64,000 bases of DNA from Allotamlana fucoidanivorans (GTDB lineage Bacteria; Bacteroidota; Bacteroidia; Flavobacteriales; Flavobacteriaceae), in NCBI RefSeq assembly GCF_006265225.1, contig NZ_VDCS01000005.1, forward strand, positions 186,001 through 250,000, in the 5' to 3' direction. The notes below the pieces were generated by a model, which saw only the letters and a list, made by a program, of their open reading frames with translations, searched no databases and was not told the origin of the DNA. Position 1 is the stretch's first letter, and each line of letters opens with the position of its first letter. A program made the position numbers and the translations under genes. Below, in pieces: positions 54,152 through 62,513 of this stretch.

Positions 54152-57100
54152 TTAATTCACAATAATCTTTTTTGAAAGCACTTGGTTATCTTCCGTACGT
54201 AATTGCACGATATATGCGCCACTAGACAGATTATAAAACTGAAACCCATTTTCTAATGCCGAAATAGGTAAATCTGGCATATCTAGAGCTATTTGGCCTC
54301 GCATATTCACTAAAGCCAACCGCTTTATATTACTGTTCAATTTTTTAACATACAAGGTGTTGGTTGTATTCTTATAATAAATAAAATTATCACTAGCTTG
54401 AGCCTCTGCCATACTCAAGGCTTGCTGTTCATTTTGAAATACAATTTCAAATCTTTTATTGAATTTACCTTGTTCTGAAGAAAAGGTGTAAGCCGCATTG
54501 TTTTTAGTTAAATCATAATATTCTCCTGTAAGATTATCTTTGATATAAATTTTTTGACTTTTTTCAATATTTATAAGGCTGGTTATTTTAATTTCAAACG
54601 CATTATCTCCAGACGATTTAAAATTAAGAGGAATCACCTTATCATTTGCCAATGGCCCATATGCCTGAATGTTCATATTTTTGCCGTTCAAACTCAAATT
54701 GAGGTCGTTATTATTTACTTCTGAACATTCGGCATCATAGCCATAATCATAGTCATCTGAAGTAAGTTCACTAAAACCAATTAAAAGTTCACGTCTTGTC
54801 TTAGGACCAGATACTGAATTAATTTCTAGTCTTATTTTTTGCATTGCAGAACTTGAGTTGTCTGGCTGTTTTGATTCATTTTTAGGCTTTCCACCCGTAT
54901 TTTTTAAAAAAACCGATCCGTTTTCTTCATTAATATTATCGGCATCTGATTCTTTAATAAAAACACGCTGATTATTATTAAACTCAATTTGTCCATCTGC
55001 CTCAACCTCAACTACGAAGCCCTGAGCCACTGGAAGATAACGAGTAGGCAACTTGGTACCATCTTGAGACCCATTTGTATCTCCTGAAAGCCCCACAAAC
55101 TGATAGGCTTTACAAGATCCTGTTTTATTTACCTGTGCATAACCACCTTCATATTGACTTAAATAATGTGTGTCTCCACCCCAATGTTGCCAAAGATAAA
55201 TATCGCCTTTTATAACACCTTGATTGTCATCAATAAACTGATACATATCTAAAGCGGAAGGATACGGGTTACCCAGCAAGTAATCGGTTTTGGTTTTATC
55301 TGGAATAGAACCAGCACCACCTTTATCTAACACGTCCAAAATAATGGTTCCATTATTGGGTTTCCCTTCATAGATATATTGCTGCTCTGAAGCGGCAACA
55401 CCCGTTCCTTTTTGGGTATAACCAAAACCTGGAATTAAGGGGGTTGATGGTGATAAATGTGCCCAATCCCAATAGGTTAACCCTCCCATATAAGTGTATA
55501 TCCAATAGGTACTTATGCTATTACTTCCAGTATAACCTGTTGTAAAAGTACAATTGAACCCACTAGCATCTTTAATCATATTTACTTTAAAAGGTGTGTT
55601 ATTTGTATTATTTGAAGCTCCATTATTGTTAGTAAGAGTGGTTGCCATAGTTTCTCCAACAGGAGATGACCAATAATTGTATCGATACGGATTAGACTCT
55701 CCTTCCTGCCTTCTTAATACTTTACCATTTTCATTGGTCACCAAATCACTGTGTTCTGTTTGAATTAACTGCGAATCATCTTCTAAATCTAAAGCTCCAT
55801 TCAACTCAAAATACCATGTATTATACACGGCATGATCTCCCGAAACTGATAAGCTTCTTGTGTCATCAATAATAAGCCCTAATGTTTTAATGTCATGTGA
55901 GGCCGTAACATCATTTGATATTTTTACAATGCTCCAATCTTTATTATTCGCAACATCTTCAATATCCCAAACATTACCACTTTTCCAGGTAGCTTCATCA
56001 GTCCAAGCCCCAGGATTATTAGACACATAAGGCATTGGAGCTGTTTGTTGTTGTAATGAAGTTATATTATTCAATTTGGTAATTCTACCGATATAAGAAT
56101 AATCTGTTGTTCTATCATAAGAAATAATATCAGACATTGGATAGTAAGCTAACAAGCTTGACCACGGAATAGTATTATTTGTAGTAATATCTACAATATC
56201 TTTATCTATCACAGCGCCTTTAACAATACCCGAGTTATCTTTTATTTCCTGATATACCATACGTTGAATTTGATCATCGGTAAGTACGGTATTAAACACT
56301 CTAACTTCATCAATATCTCCTTTATAATATTCCCTATTGGAAACATTTTTAGTTGTTCTTCCTATTTCAAAATTACCATTTGTATCTGTGGTGTTTTCAA
56401 TATTTACTCCAATAATACCCGTATCAAGGGAATCGACAAGTACGCCATCAACATAAAGTTTCATAAGTCCTGTTGAACTAGAAAAACTGCCTGTAATGTG
56501 ATGCCATTCATCATAGTTAATGGCTGAACAAGCACATTGCCCAATTGTTTGCGCTGAGTTACCAGCGGTTGTTACTGTAAAAGAGGGTCTGTTCCCATTT
56601 TGCAACCATAATTTAAAACCTGTATCTTCACCGCCTATGGTCATATTGGTTGTATTCCCTGAATCTGACTTGACCCAAGCCATAAATGTAATATCGCTTT
56701 CTCCATTAATAAATTCTGGTGTAGACACATAATCATCAACTCCATCAAAATCTAGTTTTGACGAAAATAAAACGGGATTTATAGTAATATTGGCTCCACA
56801 ATCTGCTAAAATAAGTTCTTCAGTAGGCGGAATAGTCACATCTAAAAGCACATCAATATCCTCTACGGAACCTGCACTCACCGCATCAAATCCGCCACCA
56901 TCATCTTCGTCATAATACATATGTCCTGTAACGGTGGCTCCACTTGTTAGCGAAGCATTGTGCCTTACAATGAGTAATGAATTTTCATCGTCACCAATCA
57001 AATCATCATTACTTAAGTTTATATTATCGAGTAACATGGTACCATTGTTATAAAACTTAGCCGTACCAAAAGTCAATTCTCCTTTTAAAACAAACAAACC

Positions 57101-57799
57101 ATTATTCACATAATCGGCATTAAGAGACATATCAGTATGAATAAATAAGGAACAATCATTAATCAATGCACTAGATCCTCCCGAAGACAAAGACCCAAAT
57201 ACCTCTAATATACCACAATTGGAATAATCACTTGCAATACCTGCATCGCCCCCAACAGTTGTTCTACTGCCATAAAACGATACATAAGTTGCACTACCCC
57301 CAACACTCAAATCTCCAGCCACATTAAAGTTACCCATATTGTATACTATGGATGCTGAAGGTGGATTGAATTGTCCTGGTATGGTAATAGATCCTGTATC
57401 ATAAATATAAATCATATTGGTGCCTTGAAACCCTGTTTCCGTTGGAAAATCAATAACCCCTTCAACAATCAAGGTCACAGCATTCATTTTATCTATTTGG
57501 CCTGAGTATGTAACATTTGGTGCAATGTATAGCGTCCCCTTGAAAACTCCTCCTGCCATAATAGCGTCAGAGTTATCAGCCAAAATACACACAGAATCTG
57601 AAGAGCTAAGTCCTGAAGGTACGCCTGTTGGATTGCCTAAACTATCAACCCAACCTGAAGCCGTATAGGTATAGGTACATGTTGTGGGTTGCCCTGGCGG
57701 ATTCCAAGTATGCGGACCACAGGTTTGAGCTTTTAGCCCTATACAAGTATTTAAAACCAATAACAATATAGAGCGTTGTAGGAATAGTTTTGTTTTCAT
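54152..57799 (-). CDS. Giant T9SS-secreted protein with LamG domain (copy 1)
   Basis: The start at 57799 (MKTKLFLQRSILLLVLNTCI) gives 1215 residues with a signal peptide ending LKAQ. An N-terminal beta-solenoid-like region of Gly/Ser-rich repeats (about 30-340) is followed by a LamG/concanavalin-like domain at about 360-530 (LDFDGVDDYV and YYKGDIDEVRVFNTVLTDDQ). A long unique half ends with the T9SS type A sorting domain (about 1140-1215, ending GAYIVQLRTEDNQVLSKKII). It should be exported by the Por machinery and attached to the surface or released. Its C-terminal 700 residues are closely related to the gene at 58167. It ends at a terminator. Ligand is unknown; LamG often binds glycans. Confidence 0.9.
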   Translation of the reverse strand: MKTKLFLQRSILLLVLNTCIGLKAQTCGPHTWNPPGQPTTCTYTYTASGWVDSLGNPTGVPSGLSSSDSVCILADNSDAIMAGGVFKGTLYIAPNVTYSGQIDKMNAVTLIVEGVIDFPTETGFQGTNMIYIYDTGSITIPGQFNPPSASIVYNMGNFNVAGDLSVGGSATYVSFYGSRTTVGGDAGIASDYSNCGILEVFGSLSSGGSSALINDCSLFIHTDMSLNADYVNNGLFVLKGELTFGTAKFYNNGTMLLDNINLSNDDLIGDDENSLLIVRHNASLTSGATVTGHMYYDEDDGGGFDAVSAGSVEDIDVLLDVTIPPTEELILADCGANITINPVLFSSKLDFDGVDDYVSTPEFINGESDITFMAWVKSDSGNTTNMTIGGEDTGFKLWLQNGNRPSFTVTTAGNSAQTIGQCACSAINYDEWHHITGSFSSSTGLMKLYVDGVLVDSLDTGIIGVNIENTTDTNGNFEIGRTTKNVSNREYYKGDIDEVRVFNTVLTDDQIQRMVYQEIKDNSGIVKGAVIDKDIVDITTNNTIPWSSLLAYYPMSDIISYDRTTDYSYIGRITKLNNITSLQQQTAPMPYVSNNPGAWTDEATWKSGNVWDIEDVANNKDWSIVKISNDVTASHDIKTLGLIIDDTRSLSVSGDHAVYNTWYFELNGALDLEDDSQLIQTEHSDLVTNENGKVLRRQEGESNPYRYNYWSSPVGETMATTLTNNNGASNNTNNTPFKVNMIKDASGFNCTFTTGYTGSNSISTYWIYTYMGGLTYWDWAHLSPSTPLIPGFGYTQKGTGVAASEQQYIYEGKPNNGTIILDVLDKGGAGSIPDKTKTDYLLGNPYPSALDMYQFIDDNQGVIKGDIYLWQHWGGDTHYLSQYEGGYAQVNKTGSCKAYQFVGLSGDTNGSQDGTKLPTRYLPVAQGFVVEVEADGQIEFNNNQRVFIKESDADNINEENGSVFLKNTGGKPKNESKQPDNSSSAMQKIRLEINSVSGPKTRRELLIGFSELTSDDYDYGYDAECSEVNNNDLNLSLNGKNMNIQAYGPLANDKVIPLNFKSSGDNAFEIKITSLINIEKSQKIYIKDNLTGEYYDLTKNNAAYTFSSEQGKFNKRFEIVFQNEQQALSMAEAQASDNFIYYKNTTNTLYVKKLNSNIKRLALVNMRGQIALDMPDLPISALENGFQFYNLSSGAYIVQLRTEDNQVLSKKIIVN

Positions 57800-57954
57800 G
57801 ATTAATAGCTTTGGGGTAAACAAAATTAATTCATTATCAATTAGTTATATATTACACTTTCAAAAGCATCATTGTTTTTTGAAAGCAGGTTAGTAAATCG
57901 GCTTCTAAATCCTTAGAACAGCTTTACTTCAATATGTACAAACTTTTTGAAATT

Positions 57955-57981
57955 AATCTTGAGGGAAGAATAATTTTCGTC
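57955..57981 (-). promoter_or_regulatory. 27-bp conserved box, copy 1
   Basis: The plus strand starts AATCTTGAGGGAAGA and ends TTTTCGTC. It differs from 62372-62398 at one base (position 16). It lies 156 bases before the ATG, where the second copy is 150 bases before its ATG. Confidence 0.7.
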
Positions 57982-58014
57982 GAAACAAACCGTACGGTTT
58001 TACATTCAATTAAA

Positions 58015-58084
58015 GACAATATTAAAATAAAAATCCGATAAAAACTAATAAAAATCCGATAAAATGTGTTTTTGTTCGATAAAA
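58015..58084 (-). repeat. Four phased 8-bp boxes, copy 1
   Basis: Boxes AGACAATA (58015), CGATAAAA (58036), CGATAAAA (58057) and CGATAAAA (58077) are spaced 21, 21 and 20 bases. The second and third are part of exact 16-bp repeats TAAAAATCCGATAAAA at 58028 and 58049. Confidence 0.7.
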
Positions 58085-58166
58085 TGTGTTTTATCGTCAT
58101 TATAAGGCAAAAAAAGACCAGTCAAGAGCGGAGCGGTATATAGAATTTCAATAAAAACACCTCTAA

Positions 58167-61100
58167 TTAATTTACTATAATCTTTTTAGAAAGCACTTCA
58201 TTATTTTCAGTACGTATTTGCACAATATAGGCACCACTTGAAAGGTTGTAAAATTGAAATCCATTTTCTAAGGCTTCTACTGGTAAATTAGGCATTTGTA
58301 AAGCTACTTGACCACGCATGTTTACCAACTGTAAATTTCTTATTTTATTACCATTCATTTTTTTTACAAACAGTGTATTCGTTTTATTCTTGAAATAGAT
58401 AAAGTTGTTCTTGGCCTCAGACTCTTCAATACTTAGCGAGTGCTGTTCACTTTGAAAAACAATTTCAAATCTGGTATTAAATTTTCCTTGATCTGAACTA
58501 AACCCATAGGGTTCACCGCTTATAAGATTAAAATAATCTCCTGTTACATTATCTTTCAAGAAAATCTCTTGATCATCAGGAATGCCTTCTACCGATGTCA
58601 TCTTGATTTCAAAAGTATTATCCCCAGAAGATTTAAAATTTAAAGGAATGACCTTATCGTCTGATATTGGACTATACGCTTGAATGTTCATATTTTTTCC
58701 TTCCAAACTTAAATTCATATCATTATTATTTATTTCTAAACATTCAGCATCATAACCATAGTCAAAACCATCAGTAGCATCATGAGCAAATCCTAACAAT
58801 AATTCTCTTCTTGTTTTAGGCCCCTTAACAGTATTAAACTCTAATCGGATGCGTTGCATGATCTTTTCAGAATCTTCTTTAGCCATACCACTGCTTTTTA
58901 AGGTTTTCCCATTTGATTTAGTACCGCTAGACTTTAAAAACACAGAACCACTATCATAGGAGCTATTAGCATCGGCTTCTTTAATAAAAATGCGCTGATT
59001 ATTATTAAACTCAATTTGACCATCGGCTTCAACCTCAACAACAAAGCCTTGACCAACAGGAAGGTATCTTGTTGGTACTTTAGTTCCATCTTGCGACCCA
59101 TTGTGCCCACCAGATAAACCTACAAATTGATACGCTCTACAAGCTCCAGTTTTATTTACCTGCGCATAACCTCCTTGATATTCACTTAAATAATGTGAAT
59201 TTCCGCTCCATTGTTGCCAAAGATGCAAATCACCTTTTATAACCCCTTGATTATCATCAATAAATTTATGAATATCTATTGCTGATGGATACGGATTACC
59301 GATTAAATATTCTGTTTTTGACACATCGGGCACTGAACCTGCTCCTCCTTTGTCTGTAACATCCAATAAAACAGTTCCATTATTAGGTTTTCCTTCAAAA
59401 ATATATTGTTGTTTTGGCGCCGCTGTTCCTGTACCTTTTTGGGTGTAGCCAATGCCTGGTTTAATAAGAGAAGAAGGTGCCACTTTTTTCCAATCCCAGT
59501 AAGTAATACCGCTTATAAATGTATACAACCAATAGGTGCTTATACTGCCATTTCCTGTATAACTAGACGTAAAAGGCATATTCAAACCAACATCATCCTT
59601 TAAGGTATTTAATTTGAATGAGCTGTTATTAGCGTTGTTTAAAGCCGCGTTATTATTTGTTAAACTGGTAATTCCAACGGCTCCAACCGGCGATGCCCAA
59701 TAGTTGTATCTAAAAGGACTTGCTTCACCTTCCTGACGCCTTAAAACCTTGCCATCATTATCAGTCACCAAATCACTATATATGGTTTGAATTAACTGAG
59801 AATCATCTTCAAGATCTAGCGCCCCATTCAACTCTAAATACCAGGTATTTTCTACCAAATTATCGCCTTGTATGGTTAGGGTTTTAGCATCATCTATAAC
59901 TAACCCTAATGTTTGCACATTGTGTGCAGCAGTAACATTATTAGCTATTTTTACAATACTCCATGCTTTGTTTGTTACAGTATTGGTAATATCCCAAAGA
60001 TCTCCATACAACCAAGTTGTATTATTATTCCAATCACCCTGCATAATAGTTTCATACGGCATAGGTGCCGATTGATCTTGCACCGTGGTGATGTTATACA
60101 AAATGGCTTCAAAATCATTATCGGAATAGTCGGAAGTTTTGGCGTTAATAATTTCGGTCATAGGATAATACCCTATAAGACTTGACCAAGACACCGTAGC
60201 ATCTGTTTCTCTATCTGTTATATCTTTTGGGATGATTTTACCCTGTATCTTACCCAAATTATTCTCAATCTCTTGATACACCATTTGCTGTAATTGATCA
60301 TCCGTTAATGCCACATCAAACACACGCACTTCATCAATGCTTCCTTTAAAGTAATATGACATCGAAGGCGCGTTTACCCCTATTGTAAAGTCGTTACTTG
60401 AAGCATTTATACCTCCTGACAAAGCTGCATTATTACTAGAATTTAACAGTTCACCATTAAGATAAACTTGTAGTTTAGAGCTAGCATCTAAACCGTTATA
60501 CACAAATCCAATATGCGCCCACTGATTTAATACCAAAGAATTTGAAACTGGCATATTTAGCGTCACGCCATTCACCTGAAAACTGACTTGCTTTGAGCTT
60601 TGCACGGTTATATTTAAGTCTCCAAAACTCACAACCGTTCCTGCATTTGAAAAATTTTCATCCAACTTCACCCACGCCATTATAGTTGTTTGATTATTGC
60701 CTCCAATATTCAAATCACTAGCCATAAAATCATCAACCCCATCAAAATCAATGGTAGCCAAAATTGGAGGATTCGTATCAAAAACATCTCGATAATCTAA
60801 ATCACCACCAGTATTTAAATCGTTATCACCATCAGGAAGAATTGATAAATCGGACGGATTTTCAATAGCTTCATTAACATCCCAAACCGTATCATTAATA
60901 TTTGTAGTCTCAAACGGGTTTATCAATCCATCAGCATCTTTATCTTGATTTGTAGAGGGAGTGGCCAGTCCGTTTTCAGCTTCATCTGGTTTTCCGTCAT
61001 TATCTGAATCTAAATCAATATAGTCTGGTATGCCATCATAATCTGTATCTTCAACCACAATACCTAATCCGTAACTTGTATCTATTCCTGTTGTTGATAC

Positions 61101-62222
61101 ACCACCACTAGGAGCTATATAACCTAACGTTGATTGCGCTTCAACATTATCTGGAATACCATCTTCATCTGAATCAATATCTAAAAAATCATAGATTAAA
61201 TACCTACTACCGCTTTCATTACTATCTCCATCTGTATTTCTTGGAACCGTGCCTGTATTTGCAGAGCTTGGAATTCCCATAGTGGTGGCTGTTATGCCAA
61301 TGGTACCATCAGCAAATCCATTATAGTCAGCATCGGTTCCACCTGATTCAATAACGTCTGTTATTCCATCATTATCACTATCTAAATCTAAATGATTCGG
61401 TATGCCATCTCCATCCTGATCTAAGTCTTCACAAATCCCTGAAGCTCCTAATGAACAAAAATCTGAATCTTTATAATTTAAAACCCCATCGCCATCATCA
61501 TCTGCAGAAGGGTCTATCCCTCCTGATTCATCAGTATCTTTTATCCCGTCATTATCATCATCTAGATCTGTAATATCTGCAATACCATCACCATCACTAT
61601 CTGTCACCAAAGAGCCATTCAATGCAGAGTTACCATTATTAAATCCGATGTTACTGTTTTGACTAGCAACAAACGAAATATTATAATCTTCAATTTCTCC
61701 TGACTGATATTGATAATCACAGGAGGTAAAATTATTGTTTTGACCCGTTCTAAACCCAATGCGCATCACAGAAGCCCCAAGTTCAACATCATCAGGAATT
61801 GTTATTTCTACAGGAACTACAACGGTTTTTTCGCCATCTTCTTTTGATTTATCTTCTACAGTAAACAAAAAACGCTCCCTCGAATCTTCAAAATCACTAT
61901 CAGAATTATTAAAATTCATCCAAACAATTAGGGTGTTTTTATTTTTATTCCACCCGTTAAGTTTCACGGTAACGGTTCCTGTAATGGTCTCGCCCGCATT
62001 TATATCAGCCGATGTAACTGATGAATAATAAGTATAACTTCCTGTAGTACCTGAACTAGAATTATTAATACTCCCAATTGACACATTAGAAATATAATTA
62101 TTGTTTGCATGATCAACATTTATGGGAGTACAATATTGCGCATAAAGGCTTACGGAACAGCATAGCACAAAAAAACAGAGATTAAAAAACCTTAAACCTA
62201 AAGCAGGAGCATGTGTTTTCAT
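58167..62222 (-). CDS. Giant T9SS-secreted protein with GEVED, TSP3 and LamG domains (copy 2)
   Basis: The 1351-residue protein has a signal peptide (ending VSLYAQ) and a GEVED-type beta domain at about 32-185 (IVWMNFNNSDSDFEDSRERF and QYQSGEIEDYNISF). Then come thrombospondin type 3-like calcium repeats at about 205-480 (SDGDGIADITDLDDDNDGIK and many D-x-D-x-D loops). A LamG domain (about 500-670, ATIDFDGVDDFMA and KGSIDEVRVFDVALTDDQLQ) and the shared C-terminal half follow, ending with the T9SS type A sorting domain. It is paralogous to copy 1 from LamG onward but the N-terminal modules differ. It should be a surface adhesin or binding protein. Calcium loops are rich in Asp, as the family requires. 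Confidence 0.9.
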   Translation of the reverse strand: MKTHAPALGLRFFNLCFFVLCCSVSLYAQYCTPINVDHANNNYISNVSIGSINNSSSGTTGSYTYYSSVTSADINAGETITGTVTVKLNGWNKNKNTLIVWMNFNNSDSDFEDSRERFLFTVEDKSKEDGEKTVVVPVEITIPDDVELGASVMRIGFRTGQNNNFTSCDYQYQSGEIEDYNISFVASQNSNIGFNNGNSALNGSLVTDSDGDGIADITDLDDDNDGIKDTDESGGIDPSADDDGDGVLNYKDSDFCSLGASGICEDLDQDGDGIPNHLDLDSDNDGITDVIESGGTDADYNGFADGTIGITATTMGIPSSANTGTVPRNTDGDSNESGSRYLIYDFLDIDSDEDGIPDNVEAQSTLGYIAPSGGVSTTGIDTSYGLGIVVEDTDYDGIPDYIDLDSDNDGKPDEAENGLATPSTNQDKDADGLINPFETTNINDTVWDVNEAIENPSDLSILPDGDNDLNTGGDLDYRDVFDTNPPILATIDFDGVDDFMASDLNIGGNNQTTIMAWVKLDENFSNAGTVVSFGDLNITVQSSKQVSFQVNGVTLNMPVSNSLVLNQWAHIGFVYNGLDASSKLQVYLNGELLNSSNNAALSGGINASSNDFTIGVNAPSMSYYFKGSIDEVRVFDVALTDDQLQQMVYQEIENNLGKIQGKIIPKDITDRETDATVSWSSLIGYYPMTEIINAKTSDYSDNDFEAILYNITTVQDQSAPMPYETIMQGDWNNNTTWLYGDLWDITNTVTNKAWSIVKIANNVTAAHNVQTLGLVIDDAKTLTIQGDNLVENTWYLELNGALDLEDDSQLIQTIYSDLVTDNDGKVLRRQEGEASPFRYNYWASPVGAVGITSLTNNNAALNNANNSSFKLNTLKDDVGLNMPFTSSYTGNGSISTYWLYTFISGITYWDWKKVAPSSLIKPGIGYTQKGTGTAAPKQQYIFEGKPNNGTVLLDVTDKGGAGSVPDVSKTEYLIGNPYPSAIDIHKFIDDNQGVIKGDLHLWQQWSGNSHYLSEYQGGYAQVNKTGACRAYQFVGLSGGHNGSQDGTKVPTRYLPVGQGFVVEVEADGQIEFNNNQRIFIKEADANSSYDSGSVFLKSSGTKSNGKTLKSSGMAKEDSEKIMQRIRLEFNTVKGPKTRRELLLGFAHDATDGFDYGYDAECLEINNNDMNLSLEGKNMNIQAYSPISDDKVIPLNFKSSGDNTFEIKMTSVEGIPDDQEIFLKDNVTGDYFNLISGEPYGFSSDQGKFNTRFEIVFQSEQHSLSIEESEAKNNFIYFKNKTNTLFVKKMNGNKIRNLQLVNMRGQVALQMPNLPVEALENGFQFYNLSSGAYIVQIRTENNEVLSKKIIVN

Positions 62223-62371
62223 AATTACTAGATTTGGGGAAATCAGAATTAATTTATAATTAAAATATAATTGTTTTATTGCTCATTTTAACACCTCTTT
62301 TACCTATTTGCTATCACATAGATTAAAAAAGACACCAAAACATTTACAATTCTACAATCGTTTCCTTAACC

Positions 62372-62398
62372 AATCTTGAGGGAAGACTAATTTTCGTC
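62372..62398 (-). promoter_or_regulatory. 27-bp conserved box, copy 2
   Basis: This is the partner of 57955-57981, with a single base difference. Its arms TCTT and AAGA flank GAGGG, a short dyad. Confidence 0.7.
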
Positions 62399-62429
62399 AC
62401 ATAACGCGTAATGATTTACGCTCAACTAG

Positions 62430-62500
62430 CGACAATATTATCACAAAATATCGACAAAAACCAATTTTTAATCGTTTAAATGTATTTTTTAACGATAAAA
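62430..62500 (-). repeat. Four phased 8-bp boxes, copy 2
   Basis: Boxes start at 62430, 62452, 62473 and 62493, spaced 22, 21 and 20 bases. The third box (CGTTTAAA) is the most divergent. Confidence 0.6.
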
Positions 62501-62513
62501 CGCACTTTGTCGA

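Follow-up and report, generated by a model that had tools for sequence, protein, structure and literature searches.

Each of the two giant surface-protein genes in the window, the 64,000-nucleotide stretch of DNA analysed here, is probably controlled by a promoter-plus-leader module that belongs to its gene family, in which a phased array of activator sites would be followed by a leader RNA bearing a hairpin. We put this reading at roughly 60%. To our knowledge, the control of type IX-exported surface proteins is poorly known in marine flavobacteria, and a limited literature search returned nothing on this control element. A control region that is rare in its genome and has a readable code (the box, its 10.5-bp phase and the leader hairpin) offers a handle on the regulator, and also on post-transcriptional control in bacteria that normally have very short leaders. 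The gene family to which it is tied keeps both this 5' control region and the C-terminal part, with N-terminal parts that differ.

The two upstream regions in the window

The window lies within contig C96 of a 4.0 Mb genome, and its two genes are tandem paralogues with shared upstream stretches. Their products are 60% identical across residues 484-1351 of copy 2, with no match before residue 484. For copy 1 we picked the ATG at 57799 over the TTG at 57823 of the open-reading-frame list, because the N-terminus from there is signal-peptide-like. The repeats lie in the upstream regions 57800-58166 (copy 1) and 62223-62513 (copy 2).

54152..57799, minus strand: copy 1 gene, 1215 aa, with LamG (Laminin_G_3) and a weak Por_Secre_tail (T9SS sorting) match
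57800..57816, minus strand: CCCCAAAGCTATTAATC, which precedes the copy 1 start codon and corresponds to the CCCAAA element of relatives
57951..57975, minus strand: predicted leader hairpin of copy 1, AAUUAUUCUU-CCCUC-AAGAUUAAUU, 9 of 10 pairs with one U-U, from the 27-bp box plus flank
58017..58024, minus strand: -7 element TAATATTG of copy 1, predicted transcription start near 58012
58036..58043, minus strand: proximal box of copy 1, TTTTATCG on the gene strand, -18 from the first T of the -7 element
58057..58064, minus strand: middle box of copy 1, TTTTATCG, -39 from the first T of the -7 element
58077..58084, minus strand: distal box of copy 1, TTTTATCG, -59 from the first T of the -7 element
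58089..58096, plus strand: inverted half-box of copy 1, adjoining the distal box
58167..62222, minus strand: copy 2 gene, 1351 aa, with GEVED, LamG and Por_Secre_tail, the T9SS sorting match being weak
62223..62239, minus strand: CCCCAAATCTAGTAATT before the start codon of copy 2
62368..62392, minus strand: predicted leader hairpin of copy 2, AAUUAGUCUU-CCCUC-AAGAUUGGUU, 10 pairs, three of them G-U
62433..62440, minus strand: -7 element TAATATTG of copy 2, predicted transcription start near 62428
62452..62459, minus strand: proximal box of copy 2, TTTTGTCG, -18 from the first T of the -7 element
62473..62480, minus strand: middle box of copy 2, degenerate, TTTAAACG on the gene strand
62493..62500, minus strand: distal box of copy 2, TTTTATCG, -59 from the first T of the -7 element
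62506..62512, plus strand: inverted half-box of copy 2, TTTGTCG

The sequence-only reading had described four boxes of the type CGAYAAAA upstream of each gene. We found the word at 58036, 58057, 58077, 62452 and 62493, and the box listed at 62473 (CGTTTAAA) is degenerate. The "first" boxes, at 58015 (GACAATAT) and 62430 (CGACAATA), do not fit CGAYAAAA; on the gene strand they read TAATATTG-TC, and by sequence they are taken to be the Bacteroidetes -7 promoter element TAATATTG. Thus, one of the four supposed boxes per copy is a predicted promoter, so that copy 1 would comprise three boxes and a promoter, and copy 2 two good boxes, one degenerate box and a promoter. Transcription starts were inferred by placing the -7 element at -12 to -5, coordinates that come from the available portions of PMC9723704 and PMC6847099.

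On both strands of the 64-kb window CGAYAAAA occurs as 9 words, 6 of which are within the two upstream regions. No shuffle of copy 1 out of 5000 contained three boxes or two phased pairs. The strict word is found two times in copy 2, at a distance of 41 bp, and 7 of 5000 shuffles contained at least as many. The exact 16-bp repeats reported for copy 1 are present.

Beside the distal box of each copy lies an inverted half-box that the sequence-only reading did not mention. The two together make a 20-bp imperfect palindrome (58077-58096 and 62493-62512; on the plus strand CGATAAAATGTGTTTTATCG and CGATAAAACGCACTTTGTCG), which is not obvious in the relatives inspected by eye.

Conservation and distribution of the module

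A protein search of genome contigs yielded 51 loci, by their titles nearly all from Flavobacteriaceae (the genera include Algibacter, Winogradskyella, Mariniflexile, Yeosuana, Tamlana and Lacinutrix), with 64 homologous reading frames, of which some are truncated or lack their true start. The core of the 27-bp box, CTTCCCTCAA, is exact in 16 upstream regions from relatives and in both window copies (18/64), and 7 further regions of the 64 carry this 10-mer with one mismatch. Where the core is present, the order is boxes, -7 element, about 40-70 nt, core, more conserved stretches and start codon. Allowing at most one mismatch to CTTCCCTCAAG, we found 18 sites in the 51 loci, of which 17 are followed within 600 nt by an ATG that opens a frame of at least 200 codons or a frame running off the contig.

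The sequence-only reading had staked its array on the presence of boxes at orthologous loci, and boxes were found upstream of homologues in other Flavobacteriaceae. Within 200 bp upstream of the core in 32 leaders, we counted 51 words TT[TAC][AG]TCG in the orientation of the gene and 11 in the opposite one (shuffles: mean 4.0, maximum 10 in 200), and 10 box pairs lie 20-22 bp apart versus 0.02 expected from shuffles. The 32-leader sets omitted L055, L074 and L047, where the upstream sequence is coding or the core is wrong, and rows with more than two mismatches; the core search had not detected the leader of L055 itself, which a leader model picked up later. A profile of 60 sites reads RCAYTTNRTCG, one conserved block followed by an A/T tract.

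For the promoters, with L054, L057 and L080 added, the best word 28-78 nt upstream of the core was taken, and 29 of 35 reached the full score on a simple TA....TTG scoring of TAnnTTTG, a count of predicted promoters in A+T-rich DNA, where such words are common. Measured from the first T of the -7 element, the boxes lie mostly at -18, -39 and -60, or at -49/-50 and -70. Among 26 promoters with boxes, 9 follow the first pattern (register A), 15 the second (register B), none both and 2 neither; the registers are one helical turn apart, the register B array being further out, and the window promoters belong to register A. In register A the proximal box sits at about -30 to -24, near the position expected for a -33 element (TTTG), which in F. 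johnsoniae is described as weak itself in the available part of PMC6847099.

For 45 boxes at 30 promoters, the phase to the -7 element gave an R peak of 0.878 at a period of 10.5 (at most 0.487 in 5000 random sets), the registers having been defined on these very promoters; since the sequences are related, this Rayleigh figure and the permutation figures overstate independence. That set omitted L052, L058, L059, L060 and L079, some of which have off-phase boxes. In all 35 rows, R was 0.81 for 49 boxes, 44 of them within 2 bp of the phase. A hold-out of 8 promoters is the fairer and weaker test (17 boxes, R 0.573, 9/17 within 2 bp), and it includes L175, whose automatic -7 choice differs from the choice by eye. 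Judging by these hold-out values, promoters beyond the defining set keep the phase less strictly. The claim of a conserved direct-repeat array on one DNA face thus stands for strand and spacing at homologous loci of other genera, and for phase at most promoters, less firmly in the hold-out. Taken as sequence comparison, these results identify a conserved promoter-leader module of one surface-protein family.

Two side observations concern promoters elsewhere. At L043:5627-5734, L045:5534-5631, L048:4810-4896 and L079:5096-5231, the register-B match is preceded by another promoter-like match, of register A, which suggests tandem promoters. At L246 (G109, C5), four boxes 20-21 bp apart precede a -7-like word and a lipoprotein-like gene; the spacing is kept, but relative to the phase found at other promoters the array is displaced by 2-3 bp.

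In the genome of the window, copy 2 has four other matches, 34-52% identical. The paralogue on C118 has two boxes and that on C85 one box and one degenerate box, in both cases immediately followed by a -7-like word and then a short leader that lacks the hairpin, and those on C56 and C12 have no boxes. Upstream of 50 of the 59 genes with Por_Secre_tail matches (leaving out the window pair, three paralogues and four weak matches) there were 5 forward boxes against a shuffle mean of 3.07 (maximum 8), and with this count near the shuffle expectation we rejected a general regulon of T9SS cargo genes. Three boxes exactly 21 bp apart were found at 5 places in 4 of 149 family genomes versus 3 places in the reversed control; two of the 5 places are one simple repeat, so that the pattern is not enriched, and the window copies do not match it. 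The two-box pattern has 7 matches in the window's own genome versus 2 in the reversed control, a weak enrichment. Presumably, these matches include a small exported protein, one ECF-sigma-like gene and sites around a gene for a TPR hybrid kinase.

Three places with boxes in this genome were recorded individually. At C1:237185 (L175), two boxes 21 bp apart precede a small exported protein whose tail, translated by eye, presumably resembles PID-CTERM. At C118:91880 (L035, L087), two boxes lie at the end of one gene and just before another, to which the boxes run in the opposite orientation; we take the former to be glyceraldehyde-3-phosphate dehydrogenase-like and the latter to encode a TPR hybrid histidine kinase. 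At C61:55347 (L031), three boxes stand directly before a gene, presumably for a SixA-like phosphatase, with a divergent surface-protein gene about 400 bp away.

Leader strings were searched in the same manner. The 11-mer CTTCCCTCAAG occurs at 70 places in 99 genomes versus 64 in the reversed control, elsewhere mostly inside reading frames (30 of those loci and 20 fetched places), and the 27-bp box was rejected as a widespread motif. The core with CCCAAA within 40-70 nt was matched in 32 of 397 family genomes and also set aside, most matches being unrelated by their strings; those in G049, G172, G207 and G361 are real leaders, G172 and G361 repeating L045 and L040.

A model of array plus leader, trained on 8 sequences that include both window copies, returned in this genome the two window copies (E ~1e-23) and nothing else below 0.006. 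A leader model for register B, R1, gave 19 matches in 13 of 15 genomes and none in the other two; 17 of the 19 precede genes of the LamG/T9SS family, most of them training loci. Five matches are outside the training set (L054, L264, two in L055, one of which precedes its main gene, and a second site in L038), and the L044 leader also matched R1 in a local search. The matches L265 and L266 (E 0.003 and 0.007) are followed by no reading frame, look like chance and were discarded. At L055:5804-5899 and L038:5794-5871, the same leader type stands before short proteins of 262 and 265 aa, which by eye resemble the C-terminal module of the giant proteins without LamG.

The predicted leader RNA and its probable CCCUC hairpin

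The two 27-bp boxes, at 57955-57981 and 62372-62398 on the minus strand, share 26 of their 27 positions, as the sequence-only reading had it, and the best 27-mer in 300 dinucleotide-shuffled pairs of the two regions reached 22. Their assignment to the DNA control array was not supported: with the -7 element predicted upstream of it, the box would fall within the transcript, about 35 nt from its start, and its predicted hairpin shows covariation. From the coordinates, the predicted leaders are 213 nt (copy 1) and 206 nt (copy 2) long; for F. psychrophilum leaders, the available part of PMC9723704 gives a median of 24 nt and a mean of 65.

Across 32 leaders (L069 and L085 being further omitted from the stem count) the CCCUC loop is kept and the arms change together, with variants such as AATCTT/AAGATT, TTACTT/AAGTAA and CACTC/GAGTG. 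The mean Watson-Crick stem is 3.84, and none of 5000 arm permutations was as high (maximum 3.47). Stems of at least 4 pairs occur in 19 of the 32 leaders versus 8.5 expected, and shorter ones in 13. Five leaders with a 6-nt loop gave a covariation of 0.667 versus 0.213 when shuffled (0/500 as high), in an alignment (A4) picked for that loop after the pairing had been seen; eleven leaders with the exact 11-mer gave moderate covariation (20/500 as high). Because an invariant loop stands between co-varying arms, we favour a reading of the element as RNA: the 27-bp box is probably no DNA operator but part of an RNA hairpin.

Other folding results were negative. The window hairpins fold no better than shuffles (z -0.85 and -0.29), RNAalifold found no consensus base pair in the leader alignment, which was then used as a sequence model, and the start-codon element AATAGTCCCAAACTATT showed no covariation, its score being reached by 271 of 500 shuffles. 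Rfam gave 0 matches in the window at the gathering threshold, Flavo-1 included, and near copy 1 only three matches far under the cut-offs. A limited literature search found nothing on the core CTTCCCTCAA in Flavobacteria or on such an RNA motif.

The stretch from predicted start to core folds more stably than that downstream in 30 leaders (mean z -1.43 vs -0.44; 14 vs 7 below -1), which suggests an extra hairpin between the two. A candidate hairpin of variable sequence lies between the -7 element and the core in L037, L045, L070 and others; in the window it reads AAACCGTACGGTTT and GCGTAAATCATTACGC.

The putative bound protein, rival readings and known systems

LytTR sites are repeats of 9-11 nt separated by 11-13 nt, and YpdB and PlnC bind theirs cooperatively, the E. 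coli YpdB repeat being GGCATTTCAT (all from the available part of PMC4847170). The RCAYTTNRTCG repeats, 20-22 bp from start to start, agree with this rule, and it is because repeat geometry and sequence fit that we favour a LytTR protein. A response regulator of this type is a plausible best guess for the bound protein, and the comparison supports an array that works like a LytTR operator. The genome of the window encodes 6 LytTR proteins; no boxes 20-22 bp apart were found at their six loci, and no LytTR gene is among the 7 proteins around the arrays. Of the 51 relative loci, only L071 contains a protein related to any of the six (blastp E 1e-8). That protein, encoded some 4 kb away from the surface gene, is the ortholog of L142, which we take to adjoin ribosomal protein genes. 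Our literature search found nothing joining LytTR, direct repeats, Bacteroidetes and binding site.

AraC/XylS-type proteins also use direct repeats of about 21 bp that overlap the promoter, and their domains also occur inside hybrid two-component proteins of Bacteroidetes. Such a family, or another direct-repeat activator, could bind the array instead: a 21-bp period and sites reaching into the -33 region would suit either family, and none of our results singles out LytTR. A limited literature search returned nothing that combines AraC, XylS or LytTR with 21-bp direct repeats. AraC-type sites, however, usually show two conserved blocks per monomer, whereas the 60-site profile shows a single groove-sized block per repeat and then the A/T tract, and the box resembles the YpdB site; we consider this substitution rather unlikely. 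The leader core raises the corresponding doubt at the RNA level. It might act as DNA, for example as a downstream protein site, given that its sequence is better conserved than its pairing, that the window hairpins are no more stable than shuffles, that 13 of 32 stems fall short of 4 pairs and that RNAalifold returned no pair. In palindromic protein sites it is generally the arms that are conserved and the spacer that varies. In these leaders CCCTC, the spacer, does not change, each arm varies in step with the other, and the box lies downstream of the predicted -7 element, a position that the promoter search imposed by its construction. A DNA site in place of the hairpin seems doubtful to us, though less readily dismissed.

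The distal promoter itself could be questioned, since another -7 candidate, TAATTTTG, lies about 20 nt before the copy 1 start codon and flavobacterial leaders are short as a rule (PMC9723704, available part); the region further upstream would then be enhancer-like only. The boxes are tightly phased to the distal -7 element, conserved motifs lie in the stretch between it and the start codon, and the two own-genome paralogues with boxes have their -7-like word directly before a short leader, all of which makes a promoter beside the start codon quite improbable. That arrays and leader are a functionless remnant of a recent tandem duplication is what tandem paralogues with shared stretches might suggest at first sight, and we give it very little credence: in other genera these boxes and this core stand upstream of genes whose N-terminal halves differ, and the two window copies have kept the 27-mer while diverging in much of the leader around it.

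In the phased-array and hairpin-leader reading that we prefer, an activator would bind two to four direct RCAYTTNRTCG repeats, 21 bp apart and on one DNA face, upstream of a sigma-A type -7 element, a step for which the comparative evidence is strong. The activator, most likely of LytTR type, would bind cooperatively and recruit RNA polymerase on a signal. The transcript would begin with a leader of about 210 nt whose small hairpin, about 35 nt from its start, has an invariant CCCUC loop and a variable stem (comparative evidence moderate). A trans-acting partner, such as a GAGGG small RNA or an RNA-binding protein, might then read the exposed C-rich loop and tune the stability or translation of these very large mRNAs. 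The module looks like a little-known two-level switch for surface proteins. More tentatively, and with less than even confidence, we envisage a two-level cassette for one giant T9SS surface-protein family, which would couple a one-face, multi-site LytTR-type array to a new class of leader RNA, its CCCUC hairpin docking a conserved trans-acting RNA or protein, and which would move with the conserved C-terminal module while N-terminal domains are swapped.

Among known systems, the LytTR operators (E. coli YpdB on yhjX; AgrA, ComE, PlnC) are alike in their direct repeats of 9-11 nt placed 11-13 nt apart, and the box GCAYTTNRTCG resembles YpdB's GGCATTTCAT (PMC4847170, available part). Those operators typically have two repeats, whereas the module here has between two and four, aligned along one face and placed in either of two registers that differ by one turn, and, unlike them, occurs in Bacteroidota with a -7 TAnnTTTG promoter. 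AraC/XylS operators share the direct repeats of about 21 bp, but a second conserved block per repeat was not seen here. Post-transcriptional control of exported or outer-membrane proteins in Bacteroidota is described for Rfp18 in F. psychrophilum (PMC9723704) and, as the same type of control, for FopS/RbpB in Bacteroides (PMC11697453), each from the available part of the source. These systems are alike in target class, while here no pairing partner was found, and a search of the window's own genome for an RRM protein as hairpin partner found none at E 0.001. Finally, the 64 structured 5' regions of F. psychrophilum, with the Flavo-1 RNA, are conserved, uncharacterised 5' regulatory RNAs from the same family of bacteria, and those named in the available part of PMC9723704 precede pheA, hisG, ftsY, acsA, alaS and rimP; the module here, in contrast, would place a small CCCUC-loop hairpin before one surface-protein gene family.
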